A DNA stretch of 64,000 nucleotides from assembly GCA_029891345.1 (NCBI GenBank), contig CM056997.1, positions 217,948,712-218,012,711 of the forward strand, written 5' to 3'. Below, one piece after another: positions 10,095-58,479 of this stretch (positions are counted from its first letter, which is position 1; each line of letters starts with the position of its first letter). A program made the position numbers and the translations under genes. The notes below the pieces were generated by a model that did not search any database, was not told the origin of the DNA, and saw only the letters and a program-made list of their open reading frames with translations. This DNA is from Dryococelus australis (taxonomy: Eukaryota > Arthropoda > Insecta > Phasmatodea > Phasmatidae).

Positions 10095-10877
10095 GGCACC
10101 GGAAACTTGATTGACGGTTTCCGAATCGTTGTTATTGCGTTATTTTTACAAAAGCTTAACAAAGCATCAAAACACAACCCGACTTTTGGATGTTCGCCTT
10201 CTAATATGCCAGTCACCAAATAAACCCGCAAGGGATTCATTTTTAATTTGATATTCCACTCTCATGTGTGTAACATTGATCTGACAGTCCCAACTGAAAA
10301 CACAGAAAGCTCCTCTGCAATGGACATTGACTTACGGGCAGTTACTGGTGTATGAAGATTGGAGCACATTATTCTCACCTTGAGCAATTTTTTGCGTGAT
10401 TATGAGTTCCATGTATGCAAGCGGATATGTATTCTAAAATCCACGACACGATATGCGTTGCGATGGGAGAAAGCAGCTACCGAAAAAGTGAGAGAGGCTG
10501 TACAGGAAGAGGCAGCCATTGCTGTAACTAATGGTGAAGTAGATGAGCAAGGGATTCTTCTGCTGACAGTTGTAGCCGATAGCAGCTGGTCTAAACGGCC
10601 ATACAAAACGAAGTATGATGCACTGCCTGGTGTTATCTGCAATTGTTGGCTACCACACGAGAAAATGCCCTTTTTTACGTGAGTGTTAAATAAATATTGC
10701 TGTGTTTGTGCAAGGGCGAATGATGTAAAGGACATTACTTCACATGCTTGTTACAAAATCCATGAAGGTAGCTCAAGCAGTATGGAAGCCAGCATTATAT
10801 TTGAGGGTTTCAAAAGAAGTGAAGTTGCTTAAAATATCAAGCACGCTAAAATTATTGTTGATGGAAAAAGCAGTGTG
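10095..10877 (+). pseudogene. Mutator-like transposase / YqaJ nuclease gene, 5' half (split by insertion)
   Basis: N-terminal and central part of an arthropod-type protein that, from memory, joins a Mutator-like transposase domain to a C-terminal YqaJ-type nuclease. Recognisable blocks in order are HNPTFGC near 10,160, the NGEVDE...LLTVVADSSWSKR block (10,535-10,600; usual form VADG-WSKRSY), NKYCCVCARA (10,690-10,720), SSSSMEA and DGKSSV at 10,857-10,877. The frame is decayed: a stop near 10,215, a frame switch between about 10,350 and 10,460, then in-frame stops at 10,680 and 10,830. The gene breaks off at DGKSSV, exactly where the 24.4-kb element begins, and resumes at 35,326. It was probably a transposon's own gene, not a host gene. 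I did not find its terminal repeats. Confidence 0.75.
10872..10877. repeat. Target-site duplication AGTGTG, left copy
   Basis: The six bases AGTGTG before the element's AGTAGTGGGAG terminus are repeated exactly after its far end, at 35,320-35,325. They encode Ser-Val of the interrupted transposase in both places. Six-base duplications are the Polinton norm; Mutator-like elements usually make 8-11. Confidence 0.85.
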
Positions 10878-11599
10878 AGTAGTGGGAGTATGCCGGTTCG
10901 AGACAAAAGCGAGGGACGATGTCCAGGACAATCTCGAAACAATAACCCCAATCATAGTTCCATAAGATTGACATGGGAAGAGTTTCATCTCACTTAGAAT
11001 AACTCCTTAAATTCCGTCACCGCAACACATTCTTCGCAGTAAGCACCACACTATCCACAATCGCTCCAAAATCGTTCCATAGCTCCAGTATAGTGCCATA
11101 AGATTAAACGTGGAAGGGCTTCATCTCACTTGCTCCACATCCACATCCATATCCACATACACATCCACAATCGACTCTCCATGTTCCAACCCCACCCTCC
11201 CCTCTGCTATTCTGTAATTGCATTAACCAATTCCCCAAATGCCTCGCCCATACACTCCTTCCCAGCGAGGTAGGGTGTATTCAATTATGTAAATACTTGC
11301 TTCTTAGGCAGAAATTATGTCATCATTGGTCGCCAGCTTACTTGTAGAGTTGCTCGCTAGATGGCGCACAGTTTCAATCAATTGAACTCTGTTCGAGTAT
11401 TAGCATAAGCTGCTAGATAGCGCTGGTGTCTCTTGATGTCATCATAGCTTACTAGGTAGTACACATGTTCTCGCAATGGCTGCTAGATGGACTCTCAGTC
11501 GCTCACCCTCCACATACATTGTATTGCTTAATGCTATTATCTGTTACTATGAGCATACTGTAATACATTATAATAATCTTTGCATGCTGATGGACTTGT

Positions 11600-11665
11600 A
11601 CCGGGGAACCCCTAGGTCGGCAGATTAATAAAACTTTCTTCGATCTGAGCCACCGAAACATAAAT
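11600..11665 (-). other. tRNA-like sequence in left arm
   Basis: Read on the minus strand this gives TGGCTCAGAT and later GGTACAAGTCC, resembling a D arm followed by a T-loop (B box). The right arm holds the counterpart at 34,365-34,435 with GTTCAAGTCC. The central part cannot form a convincing anticodon arm, so it is a tRNA-derived relic and not a tRNA gene. Confidence 0.4.
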
Positions 11666-12200
11666 CGAAATGAAAATATAAATAAGAATATAAAAATGTA
11701 ACACCTACATAATCATACATCGAAAAGAAATTTATAGTATATATAACATGATTGAACAATCTATTAGTTAAAATGGATTATATTTTTAAGTTAGGTATTT
11801 AAATAACATTTATGTATTTAGCACTTTAAAATTTTCAAAAATAAATGTATGGAGCGGTATGTATATATACTCATATATAAAGGATGTTTCGTATATGGTT
11901 TCACAATAGGCAAATATTCAAAATATAATTTTGTATAGAAGATTTATGTGTTAAAATTAAAAATATATTTCTTAATTTTTTACAAAATAAACACCACTGA
12001 GCGACATACCAAAAGAATCGCATTTTTTTTTAGCCAGATATGAAATATTTCGTCAGAAGAAATTATTATGTGACAATTACCTTCGCCAGTTAGAAATTTA
12101 GTAAACATAGAAGATATCTTTTTTATTTTTAAATTAATTATGTAACCACTCCGAGCATCAAATACTACACACCACTTACCTTACTACAGGACATTTTTAT

Positions 12201-12254
12201 CTCATACCCTTTCTGACAAGGTCAACTAAGCATTTAAGCCCTTTCAATAACATA
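12201..12254 (-). other. Short conserved leader-like motif, left arm
   Basis: On the minus strand the stretch AAAGGGCTTAAATGCTTAG followed by TTGACCTTGT resembles 33,749-33,797 in the right arm and the start of the polymerase-remnant frame at 62,690. The shared pattern is AAAGGGCTTAAA, a short spacer, then TTGACCTTG. This links the element to Polinton-related sequence in the same window. Confidence 0.55.
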
Positions 12255-12309
12255 GTCATTAACTCACCAATAACATACTCATCAAGGACATATTTAGCAA
12301 CATAATATT

Positions 12310-12890
12310 ATTTTCTTTCCGATTTTAAACAAATTTTATTAGTGACTTGAGTAGGTGCTAGGCTAACATAATTAATATTAATTTTGGATTTGGGTGAAAT
12401 CCTTGGTCAGGCCATGTAATATTTTTTCATTTCAGAATATAACCAAAAGTAATTAGTAATTTTTGTGGGTGCTAGGCTTACATAAAGTACGTTAATTTTG
12501 TATTCGGGCTCGAGTCTTCAGAGCATATAATATTATTTCATTTCCAATTTTAAGCAATTTTATTTACAAGTTGGATAGGTGATAGGCTTACTTAGAGTAA
12601 TGTTTATTTCGCATTATGGATTTCAAGCTTCGGTCAGAATACCTATTAATATTTTATATCCGAACTTAATAAAAATTTATTTTTGTTTAATGTTCCTGCT
12701 TAGAGCAAGTAATGTAATGCTGTTTTTGGATTTGGGTTCGATTCATGGGCAGAACATATGTAATCCTTATTTTAATTTTGAAGTTAAAACAATTTATCTT
12801 TGATTTGTATTCCTGTTTGTTGTAATTAATGTTATGCTATTTTTGGATTTCCTAGATCGATTCCCAGGCGACTCACAAAACATTAAAAAA
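12310..12890 (+). repeat. tRNA-like ~115-bp tandem units, left arm, about five
   Basis: Each unit carries a GGTGCTAGGCTTAC block (12,354; 12,468; 12,588 in altered form) and then GGGTTCGATTC (clear at about 12,737), the pattern of a pol III A-box region and B box at tRNA-like spacing. Units are strongly diverged. The right arm has the same units in inverted orientation, expanded to about nineteen. Confidence 0.7.
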
Positions 12891-12983
12891 AAATTATTTT
12901 TTTTGGAAAATCATTTTTACATATTCACTTAGGCTCGCTGTCTATCATATTACCTGCTCGGTGTCTTATGCTTTACTAACGTG

Positions 12984-13178
12984 TTACATGTTCGATGCCA
13001 ACTGTTGAAGGTTAAGGATGGAGGATGGAATGCAGTTATATGATGTAATCGGATGATGATGTAATTGTGTAATTAACTTTATCGTGCAACTCCATTCCTG
13101 CATAAATATGCAAAGAATATTTACCAGGTATGCAAGTAAACACATTAATAATAAAGAACTAAAAATCCACCAAAGCAA
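12984..13178 (-). CDS. Small hydrophobic frame conserved in both arms, left copy (unproven)
   Basis: A 64-codon frame that begins with TTG, so a true start is not shown. It contains a hydrophobic stretch (LLLMCLLAYLVNILCIF, residues 9-25) that could span a membrane, then a polar tail. The right-arm copy has the same length with no indel. By eye about 18 of 195 bases differ, and roughly one third of these are silent, only weak evidence for selection. It may simply be a chance frame in a conserved piece of the element. Confidence 0.25.
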   Translation of the reverse strand: MLWWIFSSLLLMCLLAYLVNILCIFMQEWSCTIKLITQLHHHPITSYNCIPSSILNLQQLASNM

Positions 13179-13498
13179 TATATCCTCTCAGCAAAACAGC
13201 CAAACTTCTATTGTCATTTACCTTTTCATTTGATTCAGAATTTGTAATTAGTATTAATATTATTAGGGGTGGAAGGTATAACACTTATACTATGCTAGCA
13301 TGCAATATACACACTTATAAAGTATGCACATCATATGTAGAGAGACATACATCTACTCCCAAGGAACGACAGATCAAGACTGAAGCTGTACTGAAAACAT
13401 GTTGTCCTTAGGATATTTTGAAGAGAGAACAGTTCCTGATTTATTCCTGTCAGGTCAACGAACCCTTACAGGAAAAACAGTCGTGTATGCGGTTTCAA

Positions 13499-13563
13499 CA
13501 TATACCAACACCCATACAAACACACAGTATAACACAAACACACACATACACACACTCACACAA
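13499..13563. repeat. CA-rich microsatellite-like tract, left arm
   Basis: Imperfect ACACAC/CATACA repeats. The right arm has the matching GT-rich tract at about 28,520-28,562, so it predates or was carried with the arms. Confidence 0.75.
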
Positions 13564-13799
13564 CTCATTTGCGCATACCATACCACGCAATTGAAAAACC
13601 CCATACTATCAAACTTCACAAGCAAAACTAATTATTTTACAACTATATCAACATATCACACAACACAAATGAACACATCTCCATCACCTGTCTTCCAATA
13701 CGCACTATCACGCATATTTAATTTGGAGTATAATGATATACAAAAAAAAACTTTTCCAAGTTTCCATTTTCTAAGTTATTATATAACATAATGTATAAC

Positions 13800-15117
13800 C
13801 AAATTATAATCCAAATAAAACACTCGCCACACTCAAATCGCACTATCCCATACTACAGCATTCAAAACATGTTTATTACATAACAACTCCACAATCATAG
13901 TATGATTGTTAAAATCTGCTCTTTTTAAAAGTTGATTCGATCCTTCTATAACACTTAGATCTCATCTGCGTAGCAAGTATTTACACAATTAAATCTTCTT
14001 TCATCTCACAGGAAACTCGAGAGTTGTTTAAATATAACTGTATTTATGTTCATCTAAAAACGTCAAAATTCAAGCAAACATACTGATTTAGTCAATACTT
14101 CAACCTAAAAGAAGGTATGTACAGTTATAGTAATATATTCTTTGTCTCACATGCCAACGAGATAAATACGCGTAAATGAATTACTATATGCGATATTTGT
14201 TAAAGCACATTCATCTTAAACATTAAATATATAATATTTATGTAACATGTAATCTATAATTAAGTCAAAAATATGGTAATTTAATGTAGTATAATAACAC
14301 ATGCGCTAATAACTTATTACACAACAAATATTGACTTTAAATAATGCAAGTCGATGCATTACCTAACATGCCCTATCATAACCAAAGGCATTTTAATAGT
14401 TTTAATTTTTCTAAGAAGACCGTCTTGTGAATGGCTAACTAATTATCGCAAACTTCGGAATAACACTATGTTTACTTGTTAATTATGCAGCTTAATATTT
14501 TGAGAAACTTTAAAAAATGGTATCGATCATGATAGGTGAGGCTTACATCGGGTGATTTGAGCACAATGTTATCAATCAAGAGTAAAATATGTATGTTCCG
14601 ATAAAAAAAACATATTTAGCGAGAATATTTAGTTTACATATAAGTACTATAAACATAGTGGTTAAAGAACCTTACAGGATAAGCATATATTTATTATAAT
14701 TGCGTAGCAAGTAATTTAATCAATATATTGGCGAATATCGAAATGAAAGTAGTAAGGAAGCAACGAGATGAAACGAAATACCCACCGACAAATGGAAAAA
14801 AAAAAAAAAAAAAAAAACAAGAAACAAATACAACTATATATTTGAGACCATACTCATTGCTTCATTGCAAGTCGAACTAACTTTTTGGCACTATTATTTA
14901 CATATTGAATAACTGACGTGATGAATTTCACTCTAAGTACCATAACCAATGCTAACATTCAACTAACATATGTGTGATTGATTCTATGCATAACGTATAT
15001 AAATGACGTCTTGTAATACACTACACAACAAACACCTAAATAATATACCTTTCCATTAACTATTTCACTCGATATTGAACTCCCATACAGCATTCATCAT
15101 CTCTCTACACCAATCTT
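13800..15117. other. AT-rich inner part of left arm
   Basis: No gene seen. It pairs with about 27,100-28,480 on the right: for example CTTCGGAATAACACTATG here near 14,455 matches the inverse near 27,600-27,640. A run of 22 A lies at 14,796-14,817. Confidence 0.6.
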
Positions 15118-16360
15118 TCACAGCTCATCGACAACAAAGAACTACTTGGCCCAATATTCCATCAGTCTAGCGTCATCCCTGGAGGGTTCACCTTGGGGAA
15201 AATATACAGGCGAGTACTATATCTAAGAAGGCTACACAATCACAACAAAGAACTAATTGGCCCAATATTCCATCAGTATAGAGTCATCCCTGAAAGGTTC
15301 ACCTTGGGGAAAATATACAGGCGAGTACTATATCTAAGAAGGCTACACAACCACAACAAAGAACAACTTGGCCCAATATTCCATCAGTCTAGTGTCATCC
15401 CTGGAAGGTTCACCTTGGGGAAAATATACAGGCGAGTACTATATCTAAGAAGGCTACACAATCACAACAAAGAACTACTTGGCCCAAAATTCCATTAGTC
15501 TAGGGTCATCCCTGGAAGGTCACCTTGGGGAAAATATACAGGCGAGTGCTATACCTAAGAATGCTACACAATCACAACAAAGAACTACTTGGCCCAATAT
15601 TCCATCAGTCTACCGTCATCCCTGGAAGGTTCACCTTGGGGAAAATATACAGGCGAGTGCTATATCTAAGAAGGCTACACAATCACAACAAAGCACTACT
15701 TGGCCCAATATTCCATCAGTCTACCGTCATCCCTGGAAGGTTCACCTTGGGGAAAATATACAGGCGAGTACTATATCTAAGAAGGCTACACAATCACAAC
15801 AAAGAACTACTTGGCAGAATATTCCATCAGTCTAGCGTCATCCCTGGAAGGTCACCTTGGGGAAAATATACAGGCGAGTGCTATACCTAAGAAGGCTACA
15901 CAATCACAACAAAGAACTACTTGGCACAATATTCCATCAGTCTAGCGTCATCCCTGGAAGGTCACCTTGGGGAAAATATACAGGCGAGTACTATATCTAA
16001 GAAGGCTACACAATCACAACAAAGAACTACTTGGCCCAATATTCCATCAGTCTAGCGTCATCCCTGGAAGGTCACCTTGGGGAAAATATACAGGCGAGTA
16101 CTATATCTAAAAGGCTACACAATCACAACAAAGAATACTTGGCCCAATTCCATCAGTCTAGCGTCATCCCTGGAAGGTTCACCTTGGGGAAAATATACAG
16201 GCGAGTGCTATACTAAGAAGGCTACACAACCACAACAAAGAACTACTTGGCCCAATATTCCATCAGTCTACGTCATCCCGGAAAGGGTTTCACCTTGGGG
16301 AAAATATACAGGCGAGTCAAATACCTAAGAAGCTACCAATCACAACAAAGAACTACTTGG

Positions 16361-16460
16361 NNNNNNNNNNNNNNNNNNNNNNNNNNNNNNNNNNNNNNNN
16401 NNNNNNNNNNNNNNNNNNNNNNNNNNNNNNNNNNNNNNNNNNNNNNNNNNNNNNNNNNNN
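16361..16460. other. Assembly gap (100 N)
   Basis: A run of exactly 100 N inside the 111-bp array, the usual placeholder for a gap of unknown length. The satellite was not resolved here. Confidence 0.98.
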
Positions 16461-17480
16461 TTTTTAAAATTTCCCATAGTTGCTCATCCGGGAAAGGTTT
16501 CCCCTTGGGGGAAAAAATATACGGGGAGGTATAATCTAAAAAAGGCTACACAAAAAAAACAAAGAACATTTGGGCCCCAATATTCCATCGTCTAGTAACC
16601 CCTGGAAGGCACCTTGGGGAAAATATACGGCGAGTCTTACAAAGAAGGTAACAACCACAACAAAGAACTACTTGCCCATATTCCATCGTTCCCCCGTTCC
16701 TGGAAGGTCCCCTTTGGGGAAAAAATATACAGGGAGTTTTTTACCTAAAATCTACAAACCCCAAAAAGCTATTGGCCCCAATTTTCATCAGTTACCGTCA
16801 TCCCTGGGAAGGTTTTGGGGCGTAAATTACACGAGTATATATCAAAGAAGGTACCAACCAACAAAAATTTTTGGGCCCAATTTTCCCATCAGTCTACGCA
16901 CCCGGAAAGGGTTTCACCTGGGGAAAATATAAGGGAGTCTATACAAAGAAGGTACAAACACAACAAAGAAACTACTTGCCCCAAATATTCCATCAGTTAC
17001 TAAACCCGGGAAGGTTCCCCTTTGGGGAAATATACAGGGAGTCTATTCTAAGAAGGCTAAACAACAAAACAAAGAATATTTGGGCCAAAATATTCCATCG
17101 TCAATTTTCCCCTGGAAGGGTTTCCCTTGGGGGAAATATAAGGGGTGGGTCTATTCAAAGAGGCTACACAACACAACAAAGCAACTTGGCAATTTTCCAT
17201 CGTCTCCGTCTCCTGGAAGGGTTTCCCCTTGGGGGAAAATATAAGGAGAGTATTTATTTTAGGGCTACACAACCACAACAAAGAAATACTTGCCCAAAAA
17301 TTTTTCCAAGTCTACCTCACCCCTGGAAGGTTTAACGGGGGGAAAATATAAGGGAGTACTTATCTAAAAAGGGCTACAAACCACAACAAAAAAACTACTT
17401 GCCCAATTCCATCATTTCAACGTATCCCTGGGGTTCACTTGGGGGGAAATATAAGGGAGTACTATATTAAGAAGGCTACA
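16461..17480. other. Low-quality satellite sequence after the gap
   Basis: Monomers here are recognisable but carry many missing or doubled bases, mostly in runs of C, G and A. Monomers from about 17,500 on are clean. This looks like unpolished long-read consensus at a contig edge and should not be read as biological divergence. Confidence 0.75.
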
Positions 17481-20400
17481 CAATCACAACAAAGAACACT
17501 TGGCCCAATATTCCATTCAGTCTACCGTCATCCCTGGAAGGTTCACCTTGGGGAAAATATACAGACAGTGCTATATCTAAGAAGGCTACACAATCACAAC
17601 AAAGAACAACTTGGCCCAATATTCCATTAGTCTACCGTCATCCCTGGAAGGTTCACCTTGGGGAAAATATACAGGCGAGTGCTATATCTAAGAAGGCTAC
17701 ACAATCACAACAAAGAACAACTTGGCCCAATATTCCATCAGTCTAGTGTCATCCCTGGAAGGTTCACCTTGGGGAAATATACAGGCGAGTAGCTATATCT
17801 AAGAAGGCTACACAATCACAACAAAGAACTACTTGCCCAATATTCCATCAGTCTAGTTCATCCCTGGAAGGTTCACCTTGGGGAAAATATACAGGCGAGT
17901 GCTATATCTAAGAAGGCTACACAATCACAACAAAGAACTACTTGGCCCAATATTCCATCAGTCTACCGTCATCCCTGGAAGGTTCACCTTGGGGAAAATA
18001 TTCAGGCGAGTACTATATCTAAGAAGGCTACACAATCACAACAAAGAACTACTTGCCCAATATTCCATCAGTCTACCGTCATCCCTGGAAGGTTCACCTT
18101 GGGGAAAATATACAGGCGAGTACTATATCTAAGAAGGCACACAATCACAACAAAGAACTACTTGGCCCAATATTCCATCAGTCTACGTCATCCCTGGAAG
18201 GTTCACCTTGGGGAAAATATACAGTAGAGTGCTATACTAAGAAGGCTACACAATCACAACAAAGAACAACTTGCCCAATATTCCATTAGTCTACCGTCAT
18301 CCCTGGAAGGTTCACCTTGGGGAAAATATACAGGCAGTGCTATATCTAAGAAGGCTACACAATCACAACAAAGAACAACTTGGCCCAATATTCCATTAGT
18401 CTACCGTCATCCCTGGAAGGTTCACCTTGGGGAAAATATACAGGCGAGTGCTATATCTAAGAAGGCTACACAATCACAACAAAGAACAACTTGCCCAATA
18501 TTCCATCAGTCTAGTGTCATCCCTGGAAGGTTCACCTTGGGGAAAATATACAGGCGAGTACTATATCTAAGAAGGCTACACAATCACAACAAAGAACTAC
18601 TTGCCCAATATTCCATCAGTCTACCGTCATCCCTGGAAGGTTCACCTTGGGGAAAATATATAGGCGAGTACTATATCTAAGAAGCTACACAATCAACAAA
18701 GAACTACTTGCCCAATATTCCATTAGTCTACGTCATCCCTGGAAGGTTCACCTTGGGGAAAATATACAGGCGTGTGCTATATCTAAGAAGGCTACACAAC
18801 CACAACAAAGAACTACTTAGCCCAATATTCCATTAGTCTACCGTCATCCCTGGAAGGTTCACCTTGGGGAAAATATACAGGCGAGTGCTATACCTAAGAA
18901 GGCTACACAATCACTACAAAGAACTACTTACCCAATATTCCATCAGTCTAGTGTCATCCCTGAAGGTTCACCGGGGGAAAATATACAGGCGAGTACTATA
19001 TCTAAGAAGACTACACAATCACTACAAAGAACTACTTGGCCCAATATTCCATTATTCTAGCGTCATCCCTGGAAGGTTCACCTTGGGGAAAATATACAGG
19101 CGTGTGCTATATCTAAGAAGGCTACACAATCACAACAAAGAACAACTTAGCCCAATATTCCATTAGTCTACCGTCATCCCTGGAAGGTTCACCTTGGGGA
19201 AAATATACAGGCGAGTGCTATACTAAGAAGGCTACACAATCACTACAAAGAACTACTTGGCCCAATATTCCATCAGTCTAGTGTCATCCCTGGAAGGTTC
19301 ACCATGGGAAAATATACAGGCGAGTACTATATCTAAGAAGGCTACACAATCACAACAAAGAACTACTTGCCCAATATTCCATTAGTCGAGCATCAACCTG
19401 GAAGGTCACCTTGGGGAAAATATACAGGCGAGTGCTATATCTAAGAATGCTACACAATCACAACAAAGAACTACTTGGCCCAATATTCCATCAGTCTACC
19501 GTCATCCTGGAAGGTCACCTTGGGAAAATATAGGGTAGGTACTATATCTAAGAAGGCTACACAACCACAACAAAGAACTACTTGGCCCAATATTCCATCA
19601 GTCTACCGTCATCCCTGGAAGGATACCTTGGGGAAAATATACAGGCGAGTACTATATCTAAGAAGGCTACACAACCACAACAAAGAACTACTTGGCCCAA
19701 TATTCCATCAGTCTACCGACATCCCTGGAAGGTTCACCTTGGGGAAAATATACAGGCGAGTACTATATCTAAGAAGGCTACACAACCACAACAATGAACT
19801 ACTTGCCCCAATATTCCATCAGTCTACCGTCATCCCTGGAAGGTTCACCTTGGGGAAAATATACAGGCGAGTACTATATCTAAGAAGGCTACACAACCAC
19901 AACAAAGAACTACTTGCCCCAATATTCCATCAGTCTACCGTCATCCCTGGAAGGTTCACCTTGGGGAAAATATACGGTAGAGTACTATATCTAAGAAGGC
20001 TACACAACCACAACAAAGAACTACTTGGCCCAATATTCCATCAGTCTAGCGTCATCCCTGGAAGGATACCTTGGGGAAAATATACAGGCGAGTGCTATAC
20101 CTAAGAAGGCAACACAATCACTACAAAGAACTACTTCGCCCAATATTCCATCAGTCTACCGTCATCCCTGGAAGGTTCACCATGGGGAAAATATACAGGC
20201 GAGTACTATATCTAAGAAGGCTACACAATCACAACAAAGAACTACTTGCCCCAATATTCCATTAGTCGAGCATCAACCCTGGAAGGTCACCTTGGGGAAA
20301 ATATACAGGCGAGTGCTATATCTAAGAATGCTACACAATCACAACAAAGAACTACTTGGCCAAATATTCCATCAGTCTAGCGTCATCCCTGGAAGGTCAC

Positions 20401-23574: not shown

Positions 23575-23871
23575 GGTTTTATCATTTTATCTGGAAAATT
23601 ATAATTTTGCTGAAAATTATTTTTCTTATGGTTTTATACAGTAGATTTTGAACATTAGTTTAAGATCCTATGTCATTACCCTATGTCGTTAACCAAGGAA
23701 ATAGTTAACACTTGAGTTTCCTCAGGATGTTCCCAATCAAGAAGGTTTTATGATTTTTTTCTGAAAATTTTCATATTTGCTAAAATATTATATTTCTTTT
23801 TGTTTTATATAGTAGATGTTTTACATTTGCTTAAGATCCTATGTCATCATCCTGTGATGTAAACCAATAAT
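23575..23871. repeat. Two-copy diverged repeat (~169-bp offset)
   Basis: Blocks at 23,575-23,702 and 23,744-23,871 share GGTTTTAT, CTGAAAATT, AGTAGAT and AAGATCCTATGTCAT in order. Both lie just after the satellite array and are non-coding. Confidence 0.7.
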
Positions 23872-24029
23872 AAAATATCTTCTGCAATTGTCGGTTAGGT
23901 TAAGTGTGTTAAGTTGCTAGATTTAAGCCTGCTTCCTTGTATATGAGCATGGGTTCGATTTCCCATCTGATAAATAATTTTTAAAGACATATATTAAGAT
24001 AATGGTGATGTTTTCTCTTTCTCTGTTTT

Positions 24030-24609
24030 AGTTTTGTTGTGAAAACAGTATATAATCGCGCGTCTTGTATAAATGTTTTCACTTCTTCGACGGCTGTGAT
24101 GGAAGTCAGATCGATACGAGTGGAATCACACAGTGGTAGTGTACGGTTCTGTAATATGACTATGGTAACAATGGTTGAAGACTTACCATATGTAACACCT
24201 TCAGCAAGGGTTTCTGAAGTGTCTCTAGAATAAATACCGAAACAATATTGTTAGTGTGGTAAATACTTTTACTATAAGTTGTCGTGTTCACTGACACGAA
24301 TTAATTCATTGTTTGTTCAGTTCAGCATACCAGTCATTCCACTCTGATGAGTGTGATACTGTGTTTTCTCATAGTGATATCTCATATAGACATAAGAAGA
24401 AGTGTAAAGGCAATGTGTGTCGATCATTGGGAAGCGAATACAAGTATTGCGGCAAGACAATTGTGATAAGGTTTAGCGCTAGACAATCTGAAGATAGTAG
24501 CTGTCCATTTGCCAACAGTTATAAGACCTATACATATGTTAACTGTAATGTTGTATATGCGAGTAGGGAAGCCTTGCGTGGTTACTACAGAGAATGTTAT
24601 ATTATATAA
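24030..24609 (+). pseudogene. Zinc-finger-like protein remnant within the 24-kb element
   Basis: Two short frames (64 and 98 codons). The second has finger-like spacing, for example ECDTVFSHSDISYRHKKKC (one Cys, an F-S-S core and a C-terminal H...C), followed by two more Cys-containing blocks with F or Y cores. Key cysteines are missing, so a working zinc-binding protein is unlikely. A similar but longer degenerate finger stretch lies at 60,690-61,360, also beside the shared 1.7-kb segment. As part of a virus-like fossil it is best read as decayed cargo. Confidence 0.4.
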
Positions 24610-24929
24610 AAATTGAACATAAATAATTTAGTTAAAATGGGAATGTGATTGAGTGTATGTAATTATTACTACTTAATTTTTGAGAATTGCGTGAAATAAA
24701 AATACATTTTATAAAACATTGTTGTTTTTATTCATTTTATCCATTCCAAATTTTAACTGTTGCTATGAGCAATCACTTATAAAAATTAAGAGAATGATAA
24801 TAAAGTATTTAATATAAAAATGTATGGCTAGTTGAATGTCTACATAAACATTCATTCTACCGATATGTATACATTTCGGGAGACATTAGGTGAAACATTC
24901 TTCTTATATGTATAGATAGAGAGGTCTTA

Positions 24930-25160
24930 CAAACCGTTTGATTGGTAAATATTGATAAAGATTGATTGAAAGATTGGTAAAGATTGGTAAGGATTAATGG
25001 AAAGATTAATATAAATTAATGGAAAGATTGGTAAAGATTGGTAAAGATTGATAAACCGTTTTTATGGTTGATGGAAATATTGTTAAAGATTAGTAAAGAT
25101 TGGGAAAGACTGATGAAAAGATTATTAAGGATTGATGGAAAGATTGGTAAATATTGTTGT
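24930..25160. repeat. AAAGATTGGT-type minisatellite
   Basis: Imperfect ~10-bp units (AAAGATTGGT, AAAGATTGAT, GGATTAATGG). The same kind of array lies at 58,770-59,165 in copy 2 of the shared segment. Unit number differs between the copies. Confidence 0.8.
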
Positions 25161-25272
25161 TGTTTTTAGTCGTGTGTGTGCGTGTGTGTGGCCTGGTGAT
25201 ACGGTGAGCTCTCTGTTTCTGTAAACGAACTTTTGACAAACGCGCCATGTAAAATAAAAGAAAATATTATAA

Positions 25273-25720
25273 ACTAGCTTTTCCCGCGACTTTGTTCGCG
25301 TGGAATTTAACATTTGTTTACATATTTTTAAAATAGAAATAGAAAATTGAATTAGCTGATCCCTGCGAACTGTGCTGTGAGCTTCTCGATTTTGTGTTCA
25401 TGGCTCTTCAGTTTGTTCAGCACGTGTTCACGTTCAATTTTGCCTTCTCAATGTGTCCTCTCTAGTACGTCGGGGACGTCGGTCGATGTCTGACCATGGT
25501 ATCGCTGGCATTTTTCTCTTCTAGATCAACAAACATTTCCTGCAAGTACGTGTAAACTCGACCAATAAATATATAAGTTAGACTCCAGCACCATGTATCA
25601 TAACTAGAACCCATACTCGCCACCTCAATAACATATGGCGTGAATATTATCTCAATTGGTCGAGTGGTAGGTCAGTGATGATGCGGTTTAGTAACGCACA
25701 ATGGATTTTATATATAATGA
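25273..25720 (-). mobile_element. Non-autonomous Helitron, 448 bp
   Basis: On the minus strand it begins TCATTATATATAAAATCC and ends CGCGAACAAAGTCGCGGGAAAAGCTAGT-like sequence (last 5 bases CTAGT, preceded by a GC-rich hairpin), the classic Helitron 5'-TC and 3'-CTAGT ends. It sits between A and T, the preferred Helitron target. The copy of the surrounding segment near 59,260 lacks it and runs straight through (ATTACAAATATAAGTCTG), a paralogous empty site. No coding capacity is seen in the 448 bp. Confidence 0.85.
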
Positions 25721-26454
25721 TATAAGTCTGAAAAATAAATGACTGCATGAAACAATTATAATGTAATGTGAATTTTAAATTTATATATTAATAAGAGAAT
25801 ATTGTGTAAGAGATGAGATAAGTCTAGCATATGTATTTATTATAGAAATTTTTGTCTTCCAAATGGTATAACGTGTGCATGTGTGTATATAGGTATGATA
25901 TTGTATAATATTGGAACCTACGATCTTTCGAATATGAGATATTTGTCTCAGGGGGGTATCTGACTAAGATATAAACATTGTTTATTTCTTGTATGTGTGC
26001 TGTATATGCAGGTAGATGGTTTAAAGTGTTTTGTATAGATTTAAAAAAAAGTAATTAATTACAACTCTTATTTATGTGTTTAATTATCCTGGGGTGGCTT
26101 TTAAATATAATTTTTTTTTCCGTGTATGTTGGTATGTTCACCAAAAATGTTAATGGTGGTGTGTTTAGGTAAACCAGAGTGTTAGAAAGCGACATAGGTC
26201 TTAGGTATTTACTTTATTCTGTGTGTATGTTTTCGAGTATATTTTGGTCATTTTGGGTCAATTTTGGGTTAACATCTGTGTTATTTTGGATCAATTTGGT
26301 TTATTAGGAGCAAGTCTTGGGTGAAACTGGTTTGCCAATCGAAATATTTTAGGTTCTATGTCTATGAGTTTGTGGTATTCTGTGTGTGTATGTGTTGGAA
26401 CCTTTATATGTATGTTTTGTTGTATTGAGGTAGTTTGTTAGATATGTTCTGTAA

Positions 26455-26725
26455 AGAATATGGAATAATTTTTGAGGAATTCGGAAAGATTTTTAAGAAT
26501 AAGAAATTATATTTAAGAATAATAAATGATTTCTGAGTAATAAGAAATGAAATATGAGGAATAAGGAACTATTTTTATAAATAGGGAAAGATTTTTGAGG
26601 AATTATTAATGATTTTTTTAGAACTAAGAAATAGTTTTTGATGAATAAGAAACGAATTTTGAGGAATAATGAATGATTTTGATGATTGAGGATTGAGGAT
26701 ATAGGATTGAGGATTGAGGTATAAT
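26455..26725. repeat. Diverged AT-rich minisatellite
   Basis: Irregular units built on GAGGAATAAG-AAATGATTTTT, then GATTGAGGATTGAGGATATAG. Unit length varies around 20-30 bp. Non-coding. Confidence 0.6.
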
Positions 26726-26829
26726 ATATAGAGTAGTAGTATTTTCCTACATACTTGTGTTGAAAGTGTCATTTCTAAAGTGTATGAATTAAAAAAAAAA
26801 ATGATTTTTATATAAGTATGCTTTAATTA

Positions 26830-26965
26830 CATATATATAAGTTGCGCAGATTGTGATTGTGTAGCCTTCCTAGATAAACCACTCGCCTGTATCTTTCCCG
26901 CGAAATGAGCCTTCCAGAGATGATGTTGGACTGATGGAATATTAGGGTCAGTTGTTCTTCGTTGT
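26830..26965 (-). repeat. Single outlying copy of the 111-bp satellite unit in the right arm
   Basis: Read on the minus strand it has ATATTCCATCAGTCCAACATC, CTGGAAGGCTCAT and GATACAGGCGAGTGG in satellite order, next to CACAGCTCATCGACAAC exactly as the left arm meets the array at 15,120. It is more diverged than any clean unit of the array. The ancestral arm therefore held one unit, and the big array grew on one side only. Confidence 0.85.
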
Positions 26966-28957
26966 CGATGAGCTGTGATAGATTTGTGTAGAAAGATGAT
27001 GAACGATGTATGGGTTGATTATAGTGTGATAGTTTATTGAGAGGCATATTGTTTAGGTGTTTGTTGTGTAGTGTTTTGCAAGATGCCATGTATATAAGTT
27101 ATGAATAATATCAAACATATGTTAGTTGGAAGTTATCATTGTTTATGGTACTTAAGGTTAAATTAATTGTGTTAATTATTCAATAATTATATACTAGTGC
27201 TAAAAAGTGTGTTCGACTTACAATGAAGCAATGAGAATGTTCTCATAACCATAGTTCTTGATTTTTAATGTTTGGTTTTTCATCTGTCGATGGGAAATTG
27301 GTTTCATCTCATTGCATCCATACTACTTGCAGTTTGATATCCGTTAGACCAATACTTTGGTTAAATTACTTGATACGCGATTAAAAGTAATATCTACTTA
27401 ACCTTTATAATTCTTGAACCGCAATCAATGCGTGTAGGACTTATATGTAAATATTCTCACTATATATGAATTTTTGTTATGTGGATAAACATATTCTATT
27501 CTTGATGATTGATAACATGTTTGCTCAACACTCCCGAAGTAAGCCTAACCTCTCATGTTCAATAAATTTTTTTTAAGTTTCTCAAAATGTTAAGTACCAT
27601 TGGTAATAATTATACATGGTGCTCTTCGGAAGTTTGCGAGAATTTGTTAGCCATTCACGAAACAGTCTTCCTAGAATAAATAAAAAGATTTAAATGACTG
27701 GTTATGATAGGGTATGTTCAGTAATGCACCGACTAGCATTATGTAAGGTTGATGTTTGTTGCGTAGTTATATCTTAGCACATGTGTTATTGCACTATATT
27801 AGATTAGCATGTTTTAAACTTAATGATAGATATAAATAATATTAATTTTAAATAATTATTTAATGTTAAATAATAAAGATGAGTGTGATTAAACAAATAT
27901 CGCACATAGTAATTCATATAAACGTATTTACCTCATTGGGATTTGAAACAAAGAATATGTTAATATACCTGTAAATGCCTGCATTTAGGTTGAAGTATTG
28001 ACTAAATCAGTATGTATGCTTGAATTTTGATGCTTTTCGAAGTAGGTTAATATAGTTACATATAAACAACACTTAAGCTTCATGTGAGATGAAAGAAGGT
28101 TTAATTGTTTAAATACTTGCTATGCAGATAAGATCTAAGTATTCTGGGACGATCGAATCGACTCTTAAAAAGAGCAGATCTTAACAAACATACTTTGTTT
28201 ATTGAGTTTTTATGTAATAAGCATGTTTTGATTGCTGTAGTATGGGGTAGCACGATTTGAGTGTAGCGAGTGTTTTATTTGGATTTTAATTTGGTTTTAA
28301 ATTATGTTATATAGTTACTTACAAAATGTAAATTTGGAAAAGTTTGTTTGTATATAATTATACTTTTAGTTAAATATGTGTGATAGTGTGAATTGGAAGA
28401 CAGATGTTGGAGTTTTTTCATTTGTGATATATATTGTGTTAAAATAGTTGTCAAGTATTAGTTTTGCTTTTAAAGTTTGATGGTATAGGGCTTTACAATT
28501 TTTGGTATGGTATGTGCAAATGAGTTGTGTAAGTGTGTGTATGTGCGTGCTTGAGTGTGTGTTTTGCTATTACATGATGAAATGGTTTATCAGAGTAATT
28601 TATTGAAATATTCTTCTGTCTATGGGTGTTGGTAATGTTTTAAAACCGCATTCAAGATTGTTTTTCCTGTTAGAGTTCGTTAACCTGACAGGAATAAAGC
28701 AGCAACTGTTCTGGCTTCACAATATCCTAGGGACAACATGTTAACGGCAAGGATTTAATCTTGAGCTTCCATTCCTTGGGAGCGGAAATATGTCGCTCTA
28801 CATATAATGTGCATACTTAACAAGTGTGCACAGAATGGTAGCATAGTATAAGTGTTATACATTCCACCCCTAATAATATTAATACTAATTACAAATTCTG
28901 AATCAAATGAAAAGGTAAATTACAATAGAAGTTTGGCTGTTTTCCTGAGAGGATATA

Positions 28958-29152
28958 TTGCTTTGGTGGATTTTTAGTTGTTTATTATTAATGTGTTTAC
29001 TTGCATACCTAGTAAATATTCTTTGCATATTTATGCAAGAATGGAGTTTCACGATAAAGTTAGTTACACAATTACATAATCATCCGATTACATCATTTAA
29101 CTGCGTTCCCTCCGCCATTCTCGGCCTACAACAGTTTACATCGAACATATAA
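28958..29152 (+). CDS. Small hydrophobic frame conserved in both arms, right copy (unproven)
   Basis: Same 64-codon length as the left-arm copy, with 11 amino-acid differences, many conservative (I/V, Y/F, S/A). Starts with TTG, so no clear start codon. The hydrophobic stretch at residues 9-25 is kept. There is no homology I can name. Confidence 0.25.
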   Translation: MLWWIFSCLLLMCLLAYLVNILCIFMQEWSFTIKLVTQLHNHPITSFNCVPSAILGLQQFTSNI

Positions 29153-29469
29153 CATGTTAGTGGAGCAGTAGACACCATGCTTTAGGGAAATTGTAAGAAT
29201 ATATTTCCCAGGATTTTTTTATGTTAAGTGAGTCGCCTAGAAATCGATCTTATTAATTTGCAAATAATATTACGCTAATTACTGCAATCAGTAATCCAAT
29301 ACAAATATAAAATGTTGTTAAATTCTAAATTAAAGTAATAATAATAGTATATTTTCTGCCCAATAATCGAACAAAAATCCTAAAACAACTCTACTAAGCA
29401 GGAGTAATAATAAAACAATTTTTTTTATAAAATTCGTAAAAAAAAAAAAAAAATAATAATAGGTGTTAT

Positions 29470-30227
29470 GACCGAGATTCGAACTCTCTAATCCGAAATT
29501 AACATCATATTTATTTAGCCTAGCACCTATTCCACTCATAATTTGAAATGTGTTAAAATCGGAAATGGAATAATATTACATGCACTGAGTAGGAATGGAA
29601 CCCAAATCCGAAAATAAAATTACTTTAAGTATTCCTAGTAACTACAAAATCCACAAAAGTATTTTAGTTAAATTATAAAATAAAATATTATTATTTGAGC
29701 TGACCGAGAATTGAACCGAGATACGAAATTATCATTAGATTAAGTAAGCCTAGCAACTACCTAACTCATAAATAAATTTAGGTTAAAATCAGAAATGAAA
29801 TAATATGACTTGCCCTGAGCAAGAATCAAACAAAATAATCCAAAATTAACATTACATAAATTAATCCCAGCAACTACCCAACTCACAAATAAAATTTGGT
29901 TAAAATCAGAAGTTAAATAATATTATGTACCCGGAACCAAGTATCGAAAACAAATAAAAAATTACCATTACTTTAATTAAACCTAGCATCCACCCAACCT
30001 ACAAATAAATTATGGTTAAATTGGGAAATAAAATAATATAATGTGGCCTGATTGAGAATCGAACCCAAATACAATATTGACATTAATGTTAGTAAGCCTT
30101 GTAGGCCTAGCAAATTCACAAATAAAATTTGTTTAAATTAAAAAATGATATAATATTAATTGACCTGACTGTGAATCGAACACAAAACCAACAATAACAT
30201 TAAATTAATAAGCTTACCCAACAAACA
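29470..30227 (-). repeat. tRNA-like tandem units, right arm, first block (~7)
   Basis: Units of about 115 bp. On the minus strand each has GGTGCTAGGCTTA-like and GGTTCGATTCTCGGTC-like blocks. B-box-like motifs lie near 29,478, 29,605, 29,715, 29,830, 29,945, 30,060 and 30,178. The array is interrupted at 30,228 by an inserted element and resumes at 32,263. Confidence 0.8.
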
Positions 30228-30481
30228 CAAAAAATACGTGCCGGAATCGGGCCGGTAAAAGATAACCGACAAACTCCAGCCAGATAATACCGGCCCGCTG
30301 TCTTATGCTGGAAGCAGCCTGATGGAAATATGAAATGGCGGCCGACTGTTTGCCGACAGTGTCAAAAATACACTGTACCGCTAACGCCAAGATACAAAAT
30401 GTATTCCAGCCCAACATAGACGAAAAGTACGGGCCAGAATCGGGCCGGTAAAAGCTTGCCGACAAGTTTCGGAATCTACAA

Positions 30482-30965
30482 CTGCTGGGTGGCAGCAAGA
30501 TGCCGGGCCTGCGGCGGCTGGATGGCGGCATAATGACGGCCTGCTGATGGGGGGGGGGGGGTGGCTGCAGCGGCTGGATGGCAGCAAGATGCCGGGGCTG
30601 CGGCGGCTGGAAGGCGGCAAGACGCCGGGCCTGCGGCGGCTGGATGGCGACGAGACGCCGGGCCAGCGGCGGCTGGATTGTGGTAATATGCCGGGGGGGG
30701 GGAGGGGCTGCAGCGGCTGGATGGCGGAAAGATGCCGGGCCTGCGGTGGCTGGAAGGCGGCAAGACGCCGGGCCTGCGGTGGCTGGAAGGCGGCAAGACG
30801 CCGGGCCTGCGGCGGCTCGATGGTGGCAATATGCCGGGGGGGGGGGGCTGCAGCGGCTAGATGGTGGCAAGATGCCTAGAGGAGGGGGGGGGGGCGCAGA
30901 GGCTGGATGGCGGCAAGATGCCGTGCCTGCGGCGGCTGTATGGCGACGAGACGCCGGGCCTCTGC
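30482..30965. repeat. GC-rich 33-bp minisatellite
   Basis: Units like GCGGCGGCTGGAAGGCGGCA-AGACGCCGGGCCT, period 33 bp, interrupted by G runs of 8-13. It is sharply more GC-rich than its surroundings. The period is a multiple of three, so several frames stay open on both strands (proline/alanine-rich or glycine-rich). These are not credible proteins. Several CCGG-rich units and G runs could form G-quadruplexes. Confidence 0.85.
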
Positions 30966-31109
30966 AGTGGCATGATGTCCAGAAATAAGCTGTATAACAA
31001 AGAAAAAAACCATAACTTTCGATTAAATTGAAGTAACTTTTATTTCTTCTTTACATATATTCATTTCATTTAGTCCTCAACACATAATATGAAATGGATT
31101 TTTTTTTTG

Positions 31110-31190
31110 CTTCCCATATGCAGGATTCGAACCTAATACCCTTGAGTTGACAGTCCAGCATGCTAACCTATACACCAGGGGGTAAGTTGC
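31110..31190 (-). pseudogene. tRNA-like sequence
   Basis: On the minus strand: CTGGTGTATAGGTTAGCATG (A-box region), then CTGTCAA, then TTAGGTTCGAATCCTGCAT (a full B box, GGTTCGAATCC) and a 3' TATGGGAAG like tRNA-Glu. The presumed acceptor 5' strand (CCCCCTG) does not pair with the 3' end, so it is a tRNA pseudogene or SINE head and not a working tRNA. Confidence 0.5.
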
Positions 31191-31504
31191 TGTTACTCTC
31201 CAGTAATTTCAAATTAGCATTACAGAAATTATTATAAATAAATGTATAAATTTCATGAAAATATAACAAATAATTATGAAATAATGATTATAAAAAAACT
31301 GCATCTTCGTTTCTTCAAAGGCTTGCAAAAACAACAGTTTTTGTTAGTTTTTAATATATCTGTCGCATGGTTGTACAAATGAAAAATATTTCAATATAAA
31401 AATGCTATGGGCTACAATATGACATATATAACCATGAAAACAAATATGCTAATGGTTAACAAATGGTCTCAAAATGGCATCATGCCGTTAGCAGTTAGCA
31501 CACA

Positions 31505-32135
31505 TCTTGCCTATTCAAAAAACACTTTCCGAAAAAATTGTCGGAAAAGGGACATCATATTAGTATCTGTATTGTGATAAAGAGAAATGTCTCAAAAACG
31601 TTAGCGGGTCGGAATTAATAAGATGACCAGCTTACCGCAAAAATAAAGCTGCTTTATCGGAATCAGGCCAGAATAAAATTTTTGCTGTTGGTGACATGTT
31701 GGCTGTGAGATACCACACCGACATAATTTAGGCGATATTCATCTGTCATCCAAAAAAAAATACAGTGGGCCATTGTCTTTTATCTAACGGCAAACATACT
31801 GTATCAAAACAGACGTCTTGCAGATAACAGCTTGCTAACGTCTTGCCTATTCAAAACACTTTTCAAAAGTTTGTTGGCAAAATTACATAATATTTGTATC
31901 TTTATCATGATAAACATCCATGTCTCGAAAACGTTAGCGGGCTAGAATAAACAAGATGTCGGCCAGCTAACCGTAAAAAATGATGCTATAGCGGAATCGG
32001 ACCAGAATATTATATTTACTATTGGCGACATGTTGGCTGTGAGGTATCATGCTGACAAAATTTAGGTGATATCCATCTGTTTACCAAAAAAAAATTCATT
32101 TGGTCGTTGTCTTTTTCTAACTGCCAACATACTGT
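31505..32135. repeat. ~295-bp direct duplication inside the inserted element
   Basis: 31,505-31,805 and 31,842-32,135 align with CTTGCCTATTCAAAA, AACGTTAGCGGG, GACATGTTGGCTGTGAG and TTTAGG-GATAT-CATCTGT in order, at a 337-bp offset. They are clearly diverged, so the duplication is old. Confidence 0.8.
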
Positions 32136-32262
32136 CTAAAGAAAGACGTCATATCATTGTCAGATGGCTGTCTTCTGATATTGAAACGACAGTTGCTGGC
32201 AGTACAGGTATCGGGCCGACAATTTGCCTACACTTTGCCGACATTTTGCCGACAGGTCGTGT

Positions 32263-33690
32263 TTGCTGGCTAGCAACTACCAACCTCACAAATATAATTT
32301 GTTTAAAATCCGAAAGGTAAGTATCCTGACCAAGAATCGAACCCAAATCCAAATTTAACATTACAATAAGTGATCATATCACCCACCCAACACACAAATA
32401 AAATTTGGTTAAAATCGAAATGAAATAATATGACATACCCTGACTTAGTATCGAATACAAATCCAAAATTAACACATTAATTAAGCCGAGTACCTACTCA
32501 ACTCACAAATAAAATCTGGTTAAATTAGGAAATAAAATAATATTTCATGGCCTAAGCGAGAATCGAAACAAATCCAAAATTAGCATTACTTGTAGTAAGC
32601 CTCGCACCTAGCAAACACAAATAAAACTTGGTTAAATTTGAAAATGGAATAATGTTTTTAGATTTGACCGAGAATTGAACCAAATCCAAATTAACGTTAC
32701 ATTAAGTAAGCCTGGCACCTACCAACTACACAAATAAAATTTTGATAAAATAGGAAATTAAATCATATTATGTACCCTGACTGAGAATAGAACCTAAATC
32801 CCAAATTAACATTGTAATAAGCGAGCCTGTCACATACCCAAATCACAAATAAAACTTGGATAAAATTGGAAATGAAAAAAATATTTCGTACCCTGACCGA
32901 GTATCGAACCCAATTCCAAAATTTACTTTTCATTAAGTAAGCTTAGCAGTTACCCAACTCCCAAATGTAGTTTTTTTTTTTTTATTGGAAATGAAATATT
33001 ATTACGTGCCCTGACCAAGAATCCAACCAAAGTCCAAAATTAACATTAAATTAAGTTAGCCTAGCACCTATCCATCTACAAATAAAATTTGGCTATAATC
33101 GGAAATGACAAAATATTACGTGTCCTGACCGAAAATCGAACCCATGTCCAATATTAACATTGCATTAAGTAAGCCTAGCATCTACCCAACTCATAAATAA
33201 GATTTTGTTAAGATCGGAAATGAAATAATATTACGTGTTCTGACCAAGAATTGGACCCAAATACAAAATGAACATTATATTAAGTAAGCTTAGCTCCTAC
33301 CCAACTCATATATAAATTTTTTTAAAAATCGTAAATGAAATAATATCAAGGGACCGAGAATCGAACCCAAATACAAAATTAACGTTACATCAAGTAAGCC
33401 TACCACCTACCCAACTCCCAAATAAACTATGGTTGAAACGGAAATGAAACCAAATTACGTACCCTGACCGAGAATCGAACCCGAATACAAAATTAATATT
33501 ACATTATGTAAGTCTAGCATATACACAACACACAAATAAAATTTGGTTAAAATCAGAGATGAAATAATGTTACGTATCCTGACCGAGAATCGAACCCAAA
33601 TAAAACATTAACATTACATTTATTAAGCCTAGCACCTACACAAGTCACTATTAAAATATGGCTAAAATCGGAAATAAAATAACATTATTT
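32263..33690 (-). repeat. tRNA-like tandem units, right arm, second block (~12)
   Basis: About twelve ~115-bp units with CCTGACCGAGAATCGAACCC (the B-box inverse) near 32,338, 32,457, 32,570, 32,680, 32,790, 32,905, 33,025, 33,138, 33,255, 33,365, 33,480 and 33,590, alternating with AAGCCTAGCACCTACCCAAC. These units are more uniform than those of the left arm, as expected for a recently expanded array. Confidence 0.85.
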
Positions 33691-33744
33691 GGGTAAATAC
33701 GTCTTTGATGAGTATGTACTTGGTGAGTTTATTACTAACTACAT

Positions 33745-33800
33745 TTATAAAAGGACTTAAACGCTTAATTGACCTTGTGAGAAAGGGTTTAAGGTAAATA
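33745..33800 (+). other. Short conserved leader-like motif, right arm
   Basis: TATAAAAGGACTTAAACGC, then TTAATTGACCTTGTGAGAAA. It matches the inverse of 12,201-12,254 and the start of the polymerase-remnant frame at 62,690 (AAAGGGCTTAAACGAATAAT, TTGAC). A TATAAAAGG box-like core is present. Confidence 0.55.
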
Positions 33801-34012
33801 GGCCGTGTTGTAAGCTAAGTGGTGTTTTCATTTGATGTTCGTAGTGGTTACATAATTAATTAAAAATAAAATTAATATTTCCTCTATGTGTACTATAATT
33901 CAAGATGGTGATTGTTATAGTCACAAAATAATTTATCTGACTAGATATTCTTATCTGTCTAAAAAAAATAAGAATCTTTTGATACGTCGCTTGATTTTGT
34001 TTATTTTGTAAA

Positions 34013-34018
<6 letters not shown>

Positions 34019-34061
<43 letters not shown>
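34019..34061. repeat. (TA)n microsatellite
   Basis: About 21 TA dinucleotides in the right arm. No matching long tract is present at the equivalent point of the left arm. Confidence 0.95.
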
Positions 34062-34062
<1 letters not shown>

Positions 34063-34364
34063 CATTTAAACACATAACTTTTCTATAAAATTTTGTTTTT
34101 AATATTTGGCTGCTGTGAAGCCACAAACAAAATCTTTAAATAAGAGTTTGTGTACATATATTTTCATACATATTTCTTAGAAAATTTTATGCTTTAAATA
34201 TATAAATATTTCTTAAATACCTAATTAATTGATGAAAACACATTTTAAATAATTAATTGTTCAATCATGATATATACTACAAATTGGTTTTGAATGTATG
34301 AGTTTGTAGGTGTTTTCTTTTATGTTATACCTTATTAAGATTTAAATTTCAACTTATGTTTCAG

Positions 34365-34435
34365 TGGTTCAGATTGATGAGCGTTAGTCAATCTAGCGAC
34401 CTATGGGTCCCCTGTTCAAGTCCACAAGGATGTGA
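34365..34435 (+). other. tRNA-like sequence in right arm
   Basis: GTGGTTCAGATTGATGAGCG and later CCTGTTCAAGTCCACAAGG resemble a D arm and B box. It is the inverted partner of 11,600-11,665. Relic only. Confidence 0.4.
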
Positions 34436-35319
34436 AGTTTTTTATAGTGTATAAGATTTCTGCATATAGCATGTATAATTAATCATTATTTAGGTTAAGC
34501 AGGACCCTAGCGCTCGTAGTAACAGATAATAGAAATAACCAATACAGTGTCTGTGGCAGGTGAGCAACATACAGTTCATTTAGCAGCCATTGCAATAACT
34601 TGCGCGCTACGTAGCGGGCTATGGCGACATCAAGACACACTGGCGTTATCAAGTTGCTGATGTGAGTACTGGAACAGAGTTCGATTGGTTGTACTTGCGC
34701 ACCTTCTAACGAGTAACTCTACAAGTTGGCTGGTGGCCGATGATGACATCATCTAACAAGCAAGTATGTATATAATTTAATACAGCCTACCTCGCTGTAA
34801 AGGAATGTTAGAGGGGAGGGGGTTTGGGGGAGGGATTAAGCAATTACTGTACAGCAGAGGGCAGGGTGGAGTGATAGTATAGCAGGTATCCAGAATAAAT
34901 AACCAGAGGAGAAGGGAGCCTAGAATCTCGCAGCAGGGATCCGATCTAAGCCGAACTAATCACAACACATCTTGTTGTGAAGGATGGTTTGTGAAGGAAG
35001 TGGTGGTTGTTTATGCAGATGAAGGGGTTGGAGCATGCAGAGTCGATTGTGGATGTGATTGTGGATGTAGAGCAAGTGAGATAAAACCCTTCCCAGATTA
35101 ATTTTATGGCACTATGTCGGAGCTATGGAGTGATTGTGGAGTGTGTGTGGTGTTAACTGCAGAGCATGTAGGCGAATTGAAGAGTTTAAGGGGTTATTCT
35201 AGGTGAGATGAAACCCATTCCAGGTGAATCTTATGGGACTGCGATTGGCCTTATCGTGCAAGATTGTCGAGGACATCGTCCTTCGCCTCTTAGTCTTGGA
35301 CTGGCACGCTCCCACTAAT

Positions 35320-35325
35320 AGTGTG
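35320..35325. repeat. Target-site duplication AGTGTG, right copy
   Basis: Follows the element terminus CTCCCACTAAT. The next codon after the duplication (TAC) continues the transposase reading phase lost at 10,877. Confidence 0.85.
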
Positions 35326-58420: not shown

Positions 58421-58479
58421 TGAGGCTGCTCACGATATGATTTATACTATACAATTCAACTAAAGTATAAATACTTTTA

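Follow-up and report, generated by a model that had tools for sequence, protein, structure and literature searches.

The window analysed here is a 64,000-nucleotide stretch of the genome of the insect Dryococelus australis (GCA_029891345.1, contig CM056997.1, positions 217,948,712 to 218,012,711, forward strand). It contains a large element with inverted repeats at positions 10878-35319 of the window, a total of 24,442 bp including 100 Ns, inserted in an older transposon (Table 1). The ends, arms, satellite and coding content of this large element are considered here, following a preliminary description made from the sequence of the window alone.

Insertion into an older Mutator-like transposon

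The target of the large element is an older Mutator-like transposon with a YqaJ part. Two of its three Pfam matches are below the cut-off, although the identification holds because paralogous loci confirm the host. The right-hand piece of the host gene continues the reading frame of the left-hand piece, which, together with the PF20700 match, bears out the earlier description of an insertion within a transposase gene that resumes in phase. There are in-frame stops on both sides of the insertion, therefore the host transposase gene is dead.

A total of 19 loci of the host transposon, besides that of the window, were collected from the same genome, 13 matching both flanks and 6 the right flank only. 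When the alignments were read by eye, the insert was absent from the insertion site in all 13 that match both flanks. In five of these (L041, L043, L045, L048, and L053) the left and right flanks share exactly six bases, leaving one AGTGTG; in the remaining eight the alignment fails to reach the junction from one or both sides. The empty site, which it had been suggested should be sought in related genomes, is available in paralogues from the same genome.

The large element is inserted precisely, with a 6-bp target-site duplication and Polinton-type ends. The AGTGTG copies are identical (6/6), while 6-mers drawn in pairs at random from the window agree in 0.07% of cases. The tips are AGTAGTGGGAG at 10878-10888 on the forward strand and ATTAGTGGGAG at 35309-35319 on the reverse strand, giving an end motif of AGTAGT at the left and ATTAGT, with one change, at the right. 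In the portion of PMC8097293 dealing with vertebrate Mavericks, the ends are (AG)3 or (AGT)2 and the 6-bp duplications are perfect. The borders, tips, and duplication given in the preliminary description are confirmed base for base, and the single AGTGTG of the empty paralogues agrees with them. Its length of 24.4 kb stands only as a minimum, since there is an assembly gap of 100 Ns at 16361-16460, within the satellite. Such a gap could mark the place where two half-elements were wrongly joined in assembly, yet the 111-bp period is the same on both sides of it, and the duplication, the tips, and the reading frame of the host gene all agree across it, making a misjoin extremely improbable.

Table 1. 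Positions of the large element, its host transposon, and other Polinton-related features in the window.
Feature	Position	Strand	Basis or remark
Host Mutator-like transposase, left part	10356..10679	+	PF20700, E 3.1e-8
Target-site duplication AGTGTG, left copy	10872..10877		Single copy in 5 paralogous empty sites
Left inverted arm	10878..15245	+	Tip AGTAGTGGGAG; arm alignment
115-bp tandem array in left arm, short version	12297..12850		Longer in right arm
111-bp satellite, about 77 units	15131..23558		Contains 100 Ns at 16361-16460; one arm unit is its probable source
Middle segment, no gene recognised	23559..26850		Pfam scan; widely repeated sequence
Open frame rich in Cys/His	24295..24606	+	Zinc-finger-like by eye only; no Pfam zinc-finger match
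Right inverted arm	26851..35319	-	Tip ATTAGTGGGAG; arm alignment
Expanded 115-bp arrays of right arm	29427..33687 (29427-30216, 32270-33687)		Flank extra segment 30217-32269
Target-site duplication AGTGTG, right copy	35320..35325		Identical to left copy, 6/6
Host Mutator-like transposase, right part	35341..35535	+	PF20700, E 0.0034, below Pfam cut-off; same frame as left part; paralogues
YqaJ-like piece of host transposon	36258..36713	+	PF09588, E 0.0048, below Pfam cut-off; present in paralogous loci
Smaller inverted-repeat element with CTTCTC duplications	52275..56632 (element 52281-56626)		Tips AGTAGTATGGG and AGTAGTAGAGTAGTAGGGG
Decayed integrase pieces of smaller element	54104..55100	+	Catalytic region (DNA match to L071), C-terminal part, chromodomain
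Decayed Polinton fragment	58440..63540	+	68-73% similarity of 58442-59963 to the large element's middle; stretch ahead of PolB matched by 62799-63536

Arms, satellite and coding content

The arms align at 10880-15245 and 35317-26851 in three main pieces, forming inverted terminal repeats of about 4.3 kb, in keeping with the earlier claim of inverted arms thousands of bases long. Identity is 76.5% over 1389 columns outside the 115-bp array (the outer arm) and 82.7% over 2213 columns inside it (the inner arm). One window of 300 columns in the inner arm is much closer than the others, with a Kimura two-parameter distance of 0.077 versus 0.17-0.34. The arm part at 12960-13312 and 28824-29176 is 91% identical, against 76-83% for the whole arms, suggesting either local gene conversion or constraint. 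For 2 kb of the right arm (30217-32269) no counterpart was found in the left arm; this extra segment contains a GC-rich minisatellite and a 76% direct repeat.

Without the satellite, there is only about 3.4 kb between the arms. The middle segment at 24300-26380 is widely repeated in the genome, with 132 matches listed from the best 40 scored of 6811 first-look candidates. Counted by eye, 25 of the 38 inner-arm loci elsewhere continue toward the middle-segment side, and arm and middle thus form one terminal region in the family. A zinc-finger reading of the frames at 24295-24606 and 60646-60996 was considered and set aside, being an impression with no Pfam support.

The large element has 137 stop-to-stop frames of at least 50 codons without N, 73 outside the 111-bp array and 64 inside it. 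A Pfam scan of all 73 outside the satellite and 1 of the 64 inside found no Polinton domain and nothing above the cut-off; of the few sub-threshold matches the best has an E of 0.024. When the large element was compared in translation with 49 PolB and integrase loci, it had two marginal matches (E 0.002 and 0.006 per query), which are read as chance; in the same comparison 22 loci match the smaller element and 14 match the 58.4-63.5 kb fragment. An Rfam search of the large element found nothing, as did a tRNA search of the window with bacterial settings. The absence of recognisable core genes noted previously is thus upheld by the scan of the 73 frames and the translated comparison. With no recognised PolB, integrase, or capsid gene of its own, the large element is assigned to the Polintons solely as a non-autonomous derivative.

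The satellite extends over at least 8.3 kb and is placed to one side, against the left arm. The preliminary description was right that a satellite is present but not that it forms a core, since its position at 15131-23558 is not central. A single inverted unit of the 111-bp type is present at the corresponding place in the right arm, 26851-26965. In a genome search with the 111-bp unit, 62 matches were listed (the best 40 scored of 245 candidates), of which 24 are within the large element, 23 in the array and 1 in the right arm. The other 38 are elsewhere in the genome and are all 122 bp or shorter, about one unit. There is no second array among these listed matches, and an array elsewhere should outscore a single unit. 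Most simply, the satellite would have arisen by amplification in place of one arm segment at this insertion. The large element would then connect the origin of a satellite array with a single insertion of boundable age.

Polinton-type relatives in the genome

The ends support a Polinton reading well, and we put at about 75% the probability that the large element is a transposon of Polinton/Maverick type, non-autonomous, whose inverted arms are very long. This retains the preliminary idea of a non-autonomous 'foldback' Polinton in its Polinton-type ends, 6-bp duplication, and lack of recognised genes, but 'foldback' describes the shape only.

The genome is rich in PolB and Polinton integrase, and has a source of the latter. 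For PF03175 PolB, 54 matches were listed from the best 91 scored of 6288 candidates, with matches in 0 of 14 control genomes, and two integrase queries each gave 150 listed matches from the best 150 scored of 9517 and of 17291 candidates. Of five integrase-family pieces scanned in Pfam, one has rve above the cut-off, one has it below, one has a weak Chromo match, and two have nothing. The rve piece, the chromodomain in the window, and the very many candidates together identify the source.

A second element in the window, the smaller one, has the same tip type as the large element and a perfect 6-bp duplication, CTTCTC. Its chromodomain matches Chromo with an E of 5.8e-6 and the pieces ahead of this have no significant Pfam match, while the piece of the matched locus L071 is rve with an E of 1.7e-8. 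The smaller element is itself inserted in phase in an unidentified minus-strand reading frame (56606-56854 and 52080-52301).

This neighbour bears upon the alternative that the large element belongs to another superfamily, whether foldback-like, MULE-like, or other, with its tips and 6-bp duplication coincidental. Parts of PMC4079207 describe Tetris, a foldback element of Drosophila virilis, as having long inverted arms, a flanking domain, internal tandem repeats, and a non-coding middle, with arms of up to 1.7 kb whose repeats expand into satellite arrays. The large element shares the long inverted arms with a flanking domain and internal tandem repeats, the non-coding middle, and the probable growth of a satellite from the arm. 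However, its arms are 4.3 kb and its duplication is 6 bp, unlike the 8-10 bp of Tetris, and the (AGT)2 tip with a 6-bp duplication recurs in the integrase-containing smaller element. Another superfamily is therefore very unlikely.

Tip motifs were scanned for in 19 integrase and 30 PolB loci, giving ten motif matches in nine loci, of which those in L061 and L068 were taken as tips. The integrase-bearing L061 carries the tip AGTAGTAGGGGCGG 1.2 kb from its integrase match. With the terminal region of L061 as the query, two full-size Polintons were found, of approximately 16.2 kb (C5:165.70M) and 16.8 kb (C4:78.67M), the latter directly adjoining an integrase match. Their far ends match only the first 795 and 743 bases of the query, respectively, so by these coordinates the terminal repeats of the two ordinary Polintons would be about 0.75-0.8 kb. 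The arms of the large element are five to six times longer.

In all, seven two-ended elements were examined, and the search for other copies sharing tips and duplications that had been proposed earlier thus has six results: one duplication of 6/6, three of 4-5/6, and two that are unreadable. The large and smaller elements have 6/6. The duplication is 5/6 at C1:1.5M and 4/6 at C17:180.85M, and also 4/6 at C5:216.84M when an additional AGT is assigned to the tip. These last three (the first at C1:1495044-1511496) have related tips, and their flank bases, read by eye, match at 13 of 18 positions together. With a chance rate of 0.27 the binomial probability of this is 8e-5, and with 0.30 it is 3e-4, values that are uncorrected for the choice of tip position in two elements and leave out the two unreadable elements.

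Of the copies with related tips, C1:1495044-1511496 measures 16.45 kb, and C17:180845430-180862303, which contains a match to the middle segment, measures 16.9 kb. The first has an inverted outer arm of about 1.3 kb and no more within the 2.7 kb read at each end. Units of the 111-bp type are paired in opposite orientation about 8.2 kb apart at C2:147396443/147404727 and 4.9 kb apart at C17:92644558/92649596. From their coordinates alone, the pairs at C2:147.40M and C17:92.65M may represent additional copies in which both inner arms are present. Copies differ in how many AGT units they have at the terminus.

Two other arrangements were seen. At C4:52659316-52659761 (L084) two terminal stretches of the family are back to back in a hairpin-like mini-element of about 446 bp, with an unreadable duplication. 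At C17:142786923-142790792 the coordinates indicate two inverted middle segments separated by only about 245 bp, forming an almost complete palindrome.

Several results weigh against a Polinton origin. Two of the seven two-ended elements (C4:52.66M and C17:137.01M) have no readable duplication, and of 14 terminal readings outside the window 6 begin with AGTAGT, 3 begin with AGTAG, 3 have at least one change, and 2 are unreadable. The likeness of the tips to that of L061 is short. No integrase-bearing copy with the arms of the large element was found. In a co-location test, no PolB or integrase place that was entered lies less than 40 kb from any entered place of the arms or middle segment; the test is weak since it entered 41 of 61 arm, 40 of 132 middle-segment, 47 of 54 PolB, and 92 of 150 integrase matches, from lists of the best-scored candidates only. 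In the window, 62799-63536 matches PolB-side sequence (best E 1e-9) next to sequence homologous to the large element's middle, yet among the 72 matches listed the middle homologue is beside the homologue of 60647-61422 and never beside PolB outside the window.

A direct link to PolB through the decayed neighbour at 58.4-63.5 kb was considered for its good PolB-side matches; this pairing does not recur elsewhere and the link is not claimed. The fragment also contains a 119-bp array, and its first 1.5 kb is common with the middle of the large element.

Origin of the long arms

For a non-autonomous Polinton, the following course can be proposed. A Polinton integrase, supplied in trans because none is recognisable inside the large element, would have recognised the (AGT)2 tips; their joining to a cut with a 6-bp stagger in the older Mutator-like transposon would have generated the AGTGTG duplication. 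The terminal region shared by copies of the family runs from the tip through the outer arm, the 115-bp array, and the inner arm to the middle segment, and the large element carries most of this region at both ends, its genes probably lost before insertion. The satellite of at least 8.3 kb may have formed after or near the insertion, through amplification in place of a 111-bp segment from the left arm's inner edge.

It is also conceivable that a complete long-armed Polinton was inserted and that its genes were lost afterwards by deletion and decay. The two related-tip copies of 16.45 and 16.9 kb, which have the full size of a Polinton, are in favour of this. However, the 3.4 kb between the arms leaves little from such a course, and the opposite-orientation unit pairs at C2 and C17 suggest by their coordinates that other copies had short middles. 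Gene loss after the insertion is therefore considered unlikely.

The long arms of the large element are either an old trait of its subfamily or inverted duplications of one terminus, as by copy-back replication. Copy-back is known from the defective genomes of protein-primed replicons, and sliding or jumping back at primed ends is expected to vary the number of terminal units. For the Polintons, one terminus would be duplicated in inverted orientation during protein-primed replication and the palindromic molecules then integrated. In the two ordinary Polintons, the match beyond the short terminal repeats is at one end only, by the integrase match in one of them. The arm endpoints vary, as in the closely spaced inverted middles at C17:142.79M and the back-to-back termini at C4:52.66M, as does the number of AGT units; these fit an origin by inverted duplication, short of proof. 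Against this, the long arms could be an old subfamily trait, and C1:1.5M also has an inverted outer arm that ends at about 1.3 kb in the sequence read. Copy-back as the source of the arms is thus doubtful.

More speculatively, and improbably at present, copy-back genomes of Polintons with the same terminus at both ends and their genes lost might be integrated by helper Polintons, forming a class of germline parasites that seed satellites. If true, this class would be a transposon counterpart of defective interfering genomes.

The age of the arms was compared with that of the host. The branch of the host transposon itself measures about 0.087 substitutions per site (0.073-0.107, with single three-point estimates of up to 0.108), therefore no more than about 0.17-0.22 is expected between arms that were identical when inserted. 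The divergence is 0.197 (0.177-0.219) for the inner arms and 0.284 (0.255-0.316) for the outer arms. For transversions alone, it is 0.106 and 0.139, respectively, both above the mean expectation of about 0.08 (at most 0.11). These values hint at outer arms that were already unlike each other when the element inserted, but are not taken as proof because coding and AT-rich DNA may mutate at different rates.

Non-autonomous relatives are generally the rule for cut-and-paste transposons. For Polintons, no report of a non-autonomous or MITE-like class was found in the open-licence literature, a scope outside which the repeat databases lie, and an unpublished or database-only family is therefore possible. 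The large element resembles Polintons/Mavericks, as far as these are characterised in the portion of PMC8097293, in its (AGT)2 ends, 6-bp duplication, inverted terminal repeats, and large size. Unlike them, it has no recognised PolB, integrase, or capsid gene, and its 4.3-kb arms exceed both the terminal repeats of 46-1447 bp given there for intact vertebrate Mavericks of 12.7-24.6 kb and those of about 0.75-0.8 kb in the two full-size Polintons of this genome. The Mavericks of Mayetiola destructor, in the sections of PMC8504770 that treat them, are deleted remnants with consensuses of 0.6-4.5 kb and only a polymerase or integrase domain. These and the large element are both deleted Polinton forms, but no long-armed gene-poor form is described in those sections. 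The existence of a long-armed, gene-poor class would show Polinton ends to be sufficient for mobilisation in trans.

Other features of the window lie outside these elements. A 99-bp satellite at 3340-7592 has 43 units at 95% and contains long stretches that are open on both strands. A 101-bp tandem array of 8 units at 98% is present at 43178-43994. Pieces of a PIF1-type helicase (PF21530, PF05970) are found at 50409-51332, and presumably come from a Helitron.

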